Positions 10,531 to 13,214 of a DNA stretch of 64,000 bases are shown one piece after another. The DNA is taken from NCBI GenBank assembly GCA_023630215.1, contig JALPRQ010000001.1:1674001-1738000 (forward strand), in the 5' to 3' direction. Made by a program: the position numbers and the translations under genes. The number at the start of each line of letters is the position of its first letter. The stretch's first letter is position 1. This DNA comes from Rhodobacteraceae bacterium NBU2976 (GTDB lineage: Bacteria > Pseudomonadota > Alphaproteobacteria > Rhodobacterales > Rhodobacteraceae). Below the pieces are notes generated by a model. It was not told the DNA's origin, ran no database searches, and saw only the letters and a list, made by a program, of their open reading frames with translations.

Positions 10531-11148
10531 ATGCAAGATGCCCCCTCTGTCCTGAAAATTGCCCGTGAGAGTGGCGAGGTCGAAAGTCAGGAGCCTTTGG
10601 ACCTCGGCGAAAGGGTGCGGGCGCTGCGCAAGGCCAAGAATTGGACGCTGGAACAGGCGGCGCAAAAGGCGGGGCTGGCGCGGTCCACCTTGTCAAAAAT
10701 CGAGAACGGGCAGATGTCGCCCACGTTTGACGCTGTGCGCAAGCTGGCGACGGGGTTGGATATCACGGTGCCGCAGCTGTTCACGCCGCCAAAATCGGAC
10801 AAGGTGCTGGCGCGACGCGCGATTACCAAATCGGGCGAGGGGAAGGGGCTGATTACCGCGACCTATGAACATGAAATCCTCGCCGCCGATATGACGCAGA
10901 AGCGGATGATGCCCTATCGCGCCACAGTCCGGGCGCGAAAGTTCGAGGATTTTGATGGTTGGGTTCGCCATGATGGCGAGGAATTTCTGTATGTTCTAAC
11001 CGGGATCATTCAGTTCTTTACGGAATTTTATGAACCGGTGGAACTGCGCCGGGGCGACAGCGCTTATTACGATGCCTCGATGGGGCATAATGTTGTGTCC
11101 ACCTCGCAGGAGGACGCGGTTATTCTGTGGGTGACGTCGCTGGAGTAA
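10531..11148 (+). CDS. XRE-family transcriptional regulator with C-terminal cupin
   Basis: 205-residue DNA-binding regulator. An HTH_3 domain occupies about 25-80 (LGERVRALRKAKNWTLEQAA then STLSKIENGQMSPT, a textbook XRE helix-turn-helix). A cupin_2 barrel follows (about 125-203, DGEEFLYVLTG then GDSAYYDASMGH). Proteins of this architecture usually sense small metabolites through the cupin. It is divergent from the FrnE-like gene (54 bp between starts), which is the most obvious candidate target, and overlaps the converging aquaporin gene by 29 bp. Effector unknown. Confidence 0.9.
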   Translation: MQDAPSVLKIARESGEVESQEPLDLGERVRALRKAKNWTLEQAAQKAGLARSTLSKIENGQMSPTFDAVRKLATGLDITVPQLFTPPKSDKVLARRAITKSGEGKGLITATYEHEILAADMTQKRMMPYRATVRARKFEDFDGWVRHDGEEFLYVLTGIIQFFTEFYEPVELRRGDSAYYDASMGHNVVSTSQEDAVILWVTSLE

Positions 11149-11782
11149 AGACCACGCGGGCAACGGTCACGGCCAGCAGCGCACCGACGATCTGAGCAAT
11201 GATGAATGGCACAACATTCGCAGGCGCGATCCCGGCGAATGTGTTGGACAGGCCACGCGCAATCGTGACGGCCGGGTTGGCAAAGCTGGTGGATGCGGTG
11301 AACCAGTAGGCGGCAGTGATATACAGACCGACGAGCATCGGTACGGTCTCTGGCTTGTGGCGGATGCCGCCGAAAATCACGAAAACAAGTCCGAAGGTCG
11401 CGACGATCTCTGCCCACCATTGCGCGGGGCCGGTGCGGAGCTTTTCGGAGAATTGAATGATCTCTGTCCCAAACATACCATGCGCCGCCCAAACACCAAG
11501 GATCCCACCAATGATTTGTGCGGCGATATATTGGGAGGCGAGGGGGGTGCTGATCTCGCGCCGTGTTAAAAACGCCAGCGTCACCGCAGGGTTAAAATGC
11601 GCGCCCGATACGGGACCGAAGATGGTGATCAGCACCACAAGGATCGCACCCGTTGGAATGGTGTTTCCCAAAAGGGCAATCGCAACATTCCCGCCTGCCA
11701 GAGTCTCGGCCATGATGCCGGACCCGACTACGGTGGCTAGCAGGAAGGCGGTCCCCAACCCCTCGGCAAGCAGTTTTTGCAT
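11120..11782 (-). CDS. MIP family channel, AqpS-like (arsenic-associated aquaglyceroporin)
   Basis: Six-helix major intrinsic protein, 220 residues, forming a membrane channel for water, glycerol or metalloid acids. Two half-helix motifs are visible: NPA at 64-66 and NPA at 169-171. The residue after the second NPA, an Arg in almost all aquaporins (the ar/R filter), is Val172, implying a wider, uncharged pore. Its start codon overlaps the arsC stop (TAATG), so it is translationally coupled to arsC. By analogy with Sinorhizobium meliloti AqpS, it probably lets arsenite made by ArsC leave the cell down its gradient; this is inference from gene order and the filter change. Confidence 0.87.
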   Translation of the reverse strand: MQKLLAEGLGTAFLLATVVGSGIMAETLAGGNVAIALLGNTIPTGAILVVLITIFGPVSGAHFNPAVTLAFLTRREISTPLASQYIAAQIIGGILGVWAAHGMFGTEIIQFSEKLRTGPAQWWAEIVATFGLVFVIFGGIRHKPETVPMLVGLYITAAYWFTASTSFANPAVTIARGLSNTFAGIAPANVVPFIIAQIVGALLAVTVARVVFTPATSPTE

Positions 11783-12258
11783 TATTTCGTCCCTATCTCG
11801 GTCAACAGATGCTGAAGGTCACCAGCTGACATTTCCTCGAAATTTGTATCAAGCAGGGCTTTAGCGCGGATGAGCAATGCGTGATAGGCGAGATCAAACG
11901 CCTGCGGGCGGCTTTCGTCCGGGATATGCGGATCGGCGGGGTCGTCGACACCCCAATGCGCCCGCAGTGGTGCCCCCGGCCAGATCGGACAGGTTTCCCG
12001 CGCTGCATTGCCACAGACGGTGATCACCATATCCATTTCGGGGGCCAGCGCATATTCATCCCAGCTTTTGGAGCGCAAAAGACGGGTGTCATGCCCTTTC
12101 GCTTGCAACAATTGCAGCGCATAGGGGTTTACGTCGCCTGCAGGATGCGATCCGGCGGAATGGGCCAAAAGGCGGTCATGAGCATGGTGCCGGAAAATGC
12201 TCTCCAGCATGATGGACCGGGCCGAGTTGCCGGTACAAAGGATAAGGACGTTAAGCAT
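11782..12258 (-). CDS. arsC: Arsenate reductase (low-molecular-weight phosphatase family)
   Basis: Cytoplasmic reductase converting arsenate to arsenite, or alternatively a low-molecular-weight protein tyrosine phosphatase. The P-loop C-x5-R is CTGNSAR (C8-R14), with Asn11 and Ser12 as in thioredoxin- or glutaredoxin-coupled ArsC. 158 residues. A strong ribosome-binding site (AGAGAGGTGA) precedes the ATG. Coupling to a MIP channel favours arsenate reductase over phosphatase. No arsR, arsB, acr3 or arsH is present within the window. bdhA lies 52 bp upstream on the same strand, so the three genes may be one transcript. Confidence 0.87.
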   Translation of the reverse strand: MLNVLILCTGNSARSIMLESIFRHHAHDRLLAHSAGSHPAGDVNPYALQLLQAKGHDTRLLRSKSWDEYALAPEMDMVITVCGNAARETCPIWPGAPLRAHWGVDDPADPHIPDESRPQAFDLAYHALLIRAKALLDTNFEEMSAGDLQHLLTEIGTK

Positions 12259-12310: not shown

Positions 12311-13087
12311 CTAGAGCGCCGTCCAGCCGCCGTCGATAGAGATTGTCGTACCGGTGATCTGTTTCGCGGCGTCGGAACATAGGAACACAGTTGTCTGGCC
12401 GATCTGCTCGGTTGTTGCAAACTGCTTCGACGGCTGACGTTCCAGCAGCACCTCGCGCACGACCGTTTCGCGGTCCATTTCGTATTTCGCCATCGTGTCG
12501 GGGATTTGCGCCTCGACCAGCGGGGTAAGGACATATCCGGGGCAAATAGCGTTACAAGTAATATCAACCTCGGCCGTTTCCAGCGCCGTGGTCTTGGTCA
12601 GGCCAACCACACCATGTTTTGCCGCAACATAGGCGGATTTGTACGGGGAAGCGGTCAGGCCATGCGCCGAAGCGATATTGATAATGCGCCCCCAACCCCG
12701 CGCATACATGCCGGGAAGGGCGGCAGCGGTCGTGTGGAAGGCGGAGGACAGGTTGATCGCGATAATGGCGTTCCATTTATCGGTCGGAAATTCTTCGATC
12801 GCGGCGACATGCTGAATCCCGGCATTGTTGACAAGGATATCGACATTCCCAGCCTCGGCCACCAGGGCGCGGCACTCGTCAGGGTTTTGCAAATCAGCTT
12901 TAAGATAGCGTGCGAACACATTGTATTCATTAGATATATCATGGGCGATTTGGTCATCTTCGGGGCGATCTGTGAAGCTGTTGATCACGATATCCGCGCC
13001 CTGGGCGGCCAATTCTCGGGCCACACCCAATCCGATCCCAGAATTTGATCCGGTCACCAACGCCAATTTTCCCGATAATGTGCCCAT
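12311..13087 (-). CDS. bdhA: 3-hydroxybutyrate dehydrogenase (SDR family)
   Basis: Short-chain dehydrogenase oxidising D-3-hydroxybutyrate to acetoacetate with NAD+, in polyhydroxybutyrate and ketone-body catabolism. 258 residues: cofactor motif TGSNSGIG (13-20), NNAG, catalytic Ser (IASAHG), and YVAAKHG with the Tyr/Lys pair. C-terminal GTTISIDGGWTAL is characteristic of the BdhA subgroup. The ribosome-binding site is poor (AGCAG), and a strong terminator hairpin ends only 17 bp before the ATG; see the leader/sRNA entry. arsC follows 52 bp downstream. Confidence 0.9.
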   Translation of the reverse strand: MGTLSGKLALVTGSNSGIGLGVARELAAQGADIVINSFTDRPEDDQIAHDISNEYNVFARYLKADLQNPDECRALVAEAGNVDILVNNAGIQHVAAIEEFPTDKWNAIIAINLSSAFHTTAAALPGMYARGWGRIINIASAHGLTASPYKSAYVAAKHGVVGLTKTTALETAEVDITCNAICPGYVLTPLVEAQIPDTMAKYEMDRETVVREVLLERQPSKQFATTEQIGQTTVFLCSDAAKQITGTTISIDGGWTAL

Positions 13088-13103
13088 GCGATACTGCTAG
13101 CCC

Positions 13104-13131
13104 AAAAAAAACGCCCTCACAAGGAGGGCGT
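13104..13131 (-). terminator. Rho-independent terminator between sRNA and bdhA
   Basis: Perfect 8-bp GC-rich stem (13111-13118 with 13124-13131) and 5-nt loop, followed on the minus strand by eight T residues (13104-13111). One of the strongest intrinsic terminators in the window. Confidence 0.8.
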
Positions 13132-13179
13132 AAAGTTATTGAGGCAGGTTTCATACAGGCAAGAAACCTATCGAGCAGT
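13104..13179 (-). ncRNA. Candidate small RNA or attenuator leader upstream of bdhA
   Basis: Read on the minus strand, a sigma70-like promoter (13186-13214) is followed by about 76 nt containing hairpin 1 (AGGTTTC, 10-nt loop, GAAACCT; about 13144-13167) and then a perfect intrinsic terminator (ACGCCCTC, 5-nt loop, GAGGGCGT, then eight T). No ORF of meaningful length lies inside. The terminator is 17 bp before the bdhA ATG, so the unit could be a free-standing trans-acting sRNA or a premature termination leader controlling bdhA-arsC-aquaporin. The 5' end is predicted from the -10 box only. I cannot assign it to a known RNA family. Confidence 0.55.
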
Positions 13180-13185
13180 GGTTTA

Positions 13186-13214
13186 TATATAGGACGAGGA
13201 CTCGTTTCTGCCAA
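13186..13214 (-). promoter_or_regulatory. Sigma70-type promoter for sRNA/bdhA leader
   Basis: Minus-strand TTGGCA (-35, 13209-13214), exactly 17-bp spacer, TATATA (-10, 13186-13191). Predicted start near 13179. Spacing and hexamers are close to consensus, and the downstream terminator supports real use. Confidence 0.55.

Follow-up and report, generated by a model that had tools for sequence, protein, structure and literature searches.

A putative StsR orthologue beside bdhA in a Rhodobacteraceae genome and its predicted pairing with the mraZ leader

StsR (formerly RSs0827) is a stress-induced RNA that slows growth in Rhodobacter sphaeroides. The published RNA is 72 nt long, is under RpoHI/HII control, and binds UpsM, the dcw 5' UTR and rpoE (PMC8307010, PMC11354728). 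It triggers RNase E cleavage and is abundant in stationary phase (PMC8307010, PMC11354728, PMC5089854); R. sphaeroides is the one species for which binding of Hfq and RNase E cleavage of UpsM are known (PMC8307010, PMC5089854). The pairing of StsR with rpoE mRNA is near the start codon, and UpsM, the sRNA of the dcw 5' UTR, is published as a 206-nt RNA with a 130-nt 3' fragment. Promoters of the RpoHI/HII type have a reported TTG/TAT core (PMC10673084). The other described system that has to be considered here is the alphaR8 / MmgR / SisA-D group (RF00519, suhB), short alphaproteobacterial sRNAs that combine a 5' hairpin with an intrinsic terminator, the alphaR8/mmgR type being defined by a single-stranded UUUCCUCCCU core (PMC12559287).

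The locus described below lies in a stretch of 64,000 nt of Rhodobacteraceae bacterium NBU2976, which in its whole length we refer to as the window. Its features are as follows.

13186..13214, minus strand, promoter read directly from the sequence: -35 TTGGCA at 13214..13209, 17-nt spacer, -10 TATATA at 13191..13186
13104..13179, minus strand, predicted StsR-type sRNA, 76 nt long with the whole T run and 72 nt if four U are counted
13173..13178, minus strand, second pairing segment, RNA nt 2-7, CUGCUC
13146..13169, minus strand, hairpin 1, AGGTTTC/GAAACCT, a perfect 7 bp (13169..13163 / 13152..13146) with a 10-nt loop
13144..13160, minus strand, main pairing segment, RNA nt 20-36, GCCUGUAUGAAACCUGC
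13104..13131, minus strand, intrinsic terminator, made up of an 8-bp stem closing a 5-nt loop (13131..13111) and the T run ending at 13104
12311..13087, minus strand, bdhA, 3-hydroxybutyrate dehydrogenase (TIGR01963, 362 bits), not part of the RNA

Read along the minus strand, the order is TTGGCA, 17 nt, TATATA, TAAACC and the A at 13179, followed by ACTGCTCGATAGGTTTCTTGCCTGTATGAAACCTGCCTCAATAACTTTACGCCCTCCTTGTGAGGGCGTTTTTTTT to 13104. This A is the predicted +1, from the spacing to the -10 and from the invariant ACTGCTC, in the register given by the family alignment. An initial annotation of this DNA had noted a TTGGCA-17-TATATA promoter, a hairpin and an 8-bp terminator within about 76 nt, and all three are present as read and conserved throughout the family. 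The 79-nt stretch folds at -22.8 kcal/mol (z = -3.95), with none of 200 shuffles as low, and folding predicts one extra U:G pair in hairpin 1. A scan for promoters and terminators returns 1 and 2 sites respectively, against 1.6 and 1.6 expected from shuffles; it calls the terminator and misses the sRNA promoter, of which the -10 is uncalled. As these counts are no higher than those of the shuffles, the case for the locus rests on conservation and not on matches to consensus sequences.

Over 145 family loci the promoter consensus is TCAAACTTTTAGCTTGGA-N16-TTATAAAG. The family pattern CTTGG ... TTATAAAG fits the TTG/TAT consensus, and we infer that an RpoHI/HII-type sigma factor may act at this promoter, noting that a sigma-70-type promoter would look alike. 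Just 5' of the -35, from -48 to -38 relative to the sRNA start, is a CAAACTTTTAG block that is strongly conserved (loci L001-L148), beyond what an ordinary UP element would need, and that is degenerate in the window; it is a possible activator site.

The distribution of the RNA is sharply bounded. A first search with a 171-bp query matched 35 of 61 genomes, comprising all the same-family genera sampled and no other family, with a few incomplete same-genus genomes missed; in the distant genera the match is confined to the ~76-nt RNA, at 83-99% identity. A covariance model built on 48 sequences matches every one of 299 family genomes (one per genus, at least 95% complete) and scores 106 bits (E 2e-23) in the genome of the window. 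The gene is single-copy in nearly all of the 299, a second match being present in four genomes among those listed. In a class-wide set of 241 genomes the strong matches are again confined to the same family. The other alphaproteobacterial families sampled gave three weak matches of about 30 bits, which are bare terminator-like hairpins without the 5' core, and these were rejected as homologues as they have the terminator hairpin alone in common. In some Paracoccus the sRNA gene is on replicons of 1.5-2.2 Mb that are filed as plasmids (NZ_CP035287, CP038202, NZ_CP038196, NZ_CP038206).

Conservation within the RNA is concentrated at the 5' end. Nucleotides 1-18 are identical in all 30 loci that were fetched without the core as probe, and up to nt 40 the sole differences among these loci are an indel or substitution at one loop position. 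A DNA scan with the core itself finds, among the matches listed, almost exclusively Rhodobacterales (Ruegeria, Paracoccus, Sulfitobacter, Thioclava, Rhodovulum, Neomegalonema and others); because these loci were selected by the core, they widen its range and are no independent proof of its invariance. The stem of hairpin 1 is unchanged in all 48 aligned sequences and so provides no covariation information, an invariance that we attribute to its 3' arm doubling as pairing sequence. The terminator stem, in the same alignment, covaries among relatives, with six pairs changed on both sides. Both hairpins, the conservation of which had been named in the initial annotation as the point on which the unit would stand or fall, are therefore kept in relatives, and the proposal of a stand-alone small RNA is borne out. 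Taken from the DNA, from which the RNA itself is predicted, the promoter-hairpin-terminator unit is a real sRNA gene.

The covariance search of Rfam and of relatives that had been suggested for this locus finds the RNA in every family genome tested and no Rfam family for it at the gathering score, at which the whole window gives one tRNA only. The earlier remark that the unit belongs to no known family is thus correct for Rfam, whereas its features match those of StsR. The matches that Rfam gives at a low threshold, on either strand (asX2, Hrs1, RyhB and others), were rejected, as they involve mainly the terminator hairpin. The best alphaproteobacterial match is to suhB/mmgR (RF00519), at 22 bits (E 0.019 in a search of 321 bases) against a gathering score of 41. 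This match, together with a CCTCC in the window sequence that had been thought able to pair with Shine-Dalgarno regions, would speak for an anti-Shine-Dalgarno sRNA of the alphaR8/mmgR (suhB) or CCUCC-motif type. However, the score is far below the cut-off, the UUUCCUCCCU core is absent both from the window RNA and from the family alignment, and the CCTCC is situated inside the terminator stem, where it is replaced in most genera. At this position the stem changes freely between species (GCCCTC, GCCCGC, GCCGGC, GCCAGC, CCCCGG), and a sequence that comes and goes among relatives cannot be the working sequence. A role through CCTCC was rejected on these grounds, and the alignment largely refutes this type of sRNA, which we consider highly improbable here. 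The likeness to the alphaR8 group is one of general plan, both being small RNAs of alphaproteobacteria in which a hairpin at the 5' end is followed by an intrinsic terminator; the complementarity of the window RNA, located in the invariant 5' 40 nt, is to the dcw leader and not to Shine-Dalgarno regions.

RNA nt 20-36 are exactly complementary to GCAGGUUUCAUACAGGC in the mraZ leader, the UpsM region (G000:C1:1254968-1254984). In the genome of the window the exact GCAGGTTTCATACAGGC has two copies, one opposite the sRNA gene (13144-13160) and one 177 nt upstream of mraZ. With up to two mismatches allowed, the complement of the 17-mer is found in the mraZ leader of 16 of 19 same-family genomes as against none of nine from other families, and the family copies sit about 165-230 nt ahead of mraZ; of the three exceptions, two contain a close variant that has a small deletion, and the mraZ match of the third looks foreign. 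RNA nt 2-7 are complementary to a GAGCAG that lies downstream of the first site in the leader; the order is right for antiparallel pairing and consistent with the two sites forming one bipartite duplex. The exact 16-mer is present twice in about 162 of the 299 family genomes (a hand count of the table), while the reversed control pattern is absent from all 299. In four genomes (G029, G064, G092, G127) the RNA is present by the covariance model and the exact 16-mer is absent.

Duplexes with the leader are 2.7-7.4 sd below shuffles in same-family genomes, with one exception at -1.8, and the co-folding gain with the leader of the window's own genome is -23.7 kcal/mol, compared with a mean of -5.1 (sd 3.1, minimum -18.9) kcal/mol for 150 control pieces of the window. 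The long mraZ leader of this genome (G000:C1 ~1254.9-1255.2 kb) has an UpsM-like terminator as well as the exact StsR complement. The partner in this pairing would be UpsM, which is conserved within the family and located upstream of mraZ (C1 ~1.255 Mb in this genome) and not at the sRNA locus. From its complementarity the window RNA is predicted to pair with both UpsM and the 5' leader of dcw (mraZ), as described for StsR.

For a direct view of the model species we turned to genome G084, in which PufL aligns without difference to the reaction-centre L chain 4in5, which we take to be the R. sphaeroides protein; by this protein sequence G084 is R. sphaeroides. The sRNA occurs in it once, and the copy is 72 nt when read to four U, which is the length reported for StsR and supports the identity of the two. 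The complement in its UpsM/mraZ leader has one substitution and is 215 nt before mraZ, and the RNase E cut implied by the UpsM fragment sizes would fall about 5-10 nt downstream of it. For R. sphaeroides, co-folding yields a modest gain of -9.3 kcal/mol. Two guides to map position in this species were set aside: the number in RSs0827, because RSs0019 is on chromosome 2, and the position of mbfA, which is uninformative. The main text of the Ruegeria and Paracoccus sRNA papers has no identifiable entry for the window sRNA.

Because of these correspondences we propose that the window sRNA is very probably an orthologue of StsR and a stand-alone, trans-acting sRNA. We base the identity on length, promoter type, target and uniqueness, compared with StsR by its published description. 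Like StsR, the RNA is predicted to come from a single intergenic gene of its own with a TTG/TAT-type promoter and an intrinsic terminator, is 72 nt if four U are counted (76 nt in full), and has complementarity to both UpsM and the dcw 5' leader; the genome of R. sphaeroides carries this RNA as well. The differences are that the target site is exact in the window genome and has one substitution in R. sphaeroides, that bdhA follows 16 nt downstream in the window with the usual intervening region absent, and that other species in the genus of the window lack one base of the loop. As the comparison was with a description and not a sequence, the RNA might instead be an undescribed UpsM-pairing sRNA that is distinct from StsR and coexists with it. 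However, R. sphaeroides has one such RNA, which agrees with StsR in length, RpoH-like promoter and target, so that we think a coexisting second RNA quite improbable.

As a StsR orthologue, the RNA would be a trans-acting sRNA of about 72-76 nt, made from its own stress-type promoter and ending at its own intrinsic terminator. From what is known in R. sphaeroides, its action would open the dcw leader to RNase E, and this access would lower the dcw mRNAs and slow growth. For the window organism, expression, Hfq binding, RNase E cleavage and the growth effect would follow by analogy. StsR has so far been described in one model species, and the results indicate that StsR and the site it targets in the dcw leader form a pair across the whole family, with the sRNA in 299 of 299 genera tested. 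A core of 40 nt that hardly changes is without an Rfam family, and sRNA control of cell division becomes testable across marine roseobacters, Paracoccus and others. For the known target 6 + 17 nt would suffice, yet far more is fixed, which suggests further targets beyond the dcw leader.

The relation to bdhA deserves separate consideration. Its ATG, at 13087, is 16 nt after the T run and has no clear Shine-Dalgarno sequence, in agreement with the weak ribosome-binding site reported earlier. In 110 of 164 stretches (several of these being the window's own locus) bdhA shares the strand of the sRNA and is no more than 700 nt away, and bdhA is downstream of the sRNA in R. sphaeroides also. The median sRNA-bdhA gap is about 112 nt, and that of 16 nt in the window is the shortest seen. 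A TGC-N2-4-TGC motif, often TTTTGCAnnTGCAGCAT, is present in 49 of 106 such gaps (loci L012-L148) versus about 10 expected from shuffled sequence, about fivefold, and is probably a separate bdhA promoter or operator. The TTTTGCAnnTGCAGCAT-like motif is missing in the window gap (13088-13103), and only in the window genome are the gap and the promoter region of bdhA nearly gone.

This arrangement had led to the suggestion that the unit is a termination-controlled leader of bdhA-arsC-aqpS, in which the terminator decides whether bdhA is transcribed from the sRNA promoter. A gap of 16 nt leaves no room for another promoter, the ribosome-binding site is not clear, and the stsR-bdhA order is common, all of which would fit such an attenuator. 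Nevertheless the RNA is complete at loci that have no bdhA downstream (L002, L004-L011, L014, L044, L100, L126 and others), and in same-genus relatives a convergent HTH-cupin gene follows the intact RNA, so that the constant association with bdhA expected of a cis-acting attenuator is not seen. Where bdhA does follow, it mostly has some 110 nt of its own upstream sequence, often promoter-like with the TGC-N2-4-TGC motif. No alternative anti-terminator pairing was seen, and selection on the 5' part is for a match to mraZ and not to bdhA. We regard attenuation of bdhA as unlikely, and as a primary role it does not survive these comparisons.

With the RNA taken as StsR, bdhA may in the window genome alone depend on read-through past the sRNA terminator. 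Loss of the bdhA upstream region could have fused bdhA-arsC-aqpS to the stsR unit, which would then give both StsR and a read-through mRNA, although we hold this to be a rather doubtful possibility. If true, the read-through mRNA would serve 3-hydroxybutyrate use and arsenic handling from a stress-induced sRNA promoter, and the frequent stsR-bdhA neighbourhood would reflect a functional link between growth arrest and the use of storage carbon. An insertion of bdhA-arsC-aqpS beside the sRNA gene was considered and dropped when stsR-bdhA proved, in a wider comparison of neighbours, to be the common order. Beyond bdhA the window has arsC and aqpS (11120-12258) and an HTH-cupin gene (10531-11148); in many genera aqpS-arsC and the HTH-cupin regulator gene are again close to the sRNA, in changing order and on changing strands, which indicates that this neighbourhood has been repeatedly rearranged.
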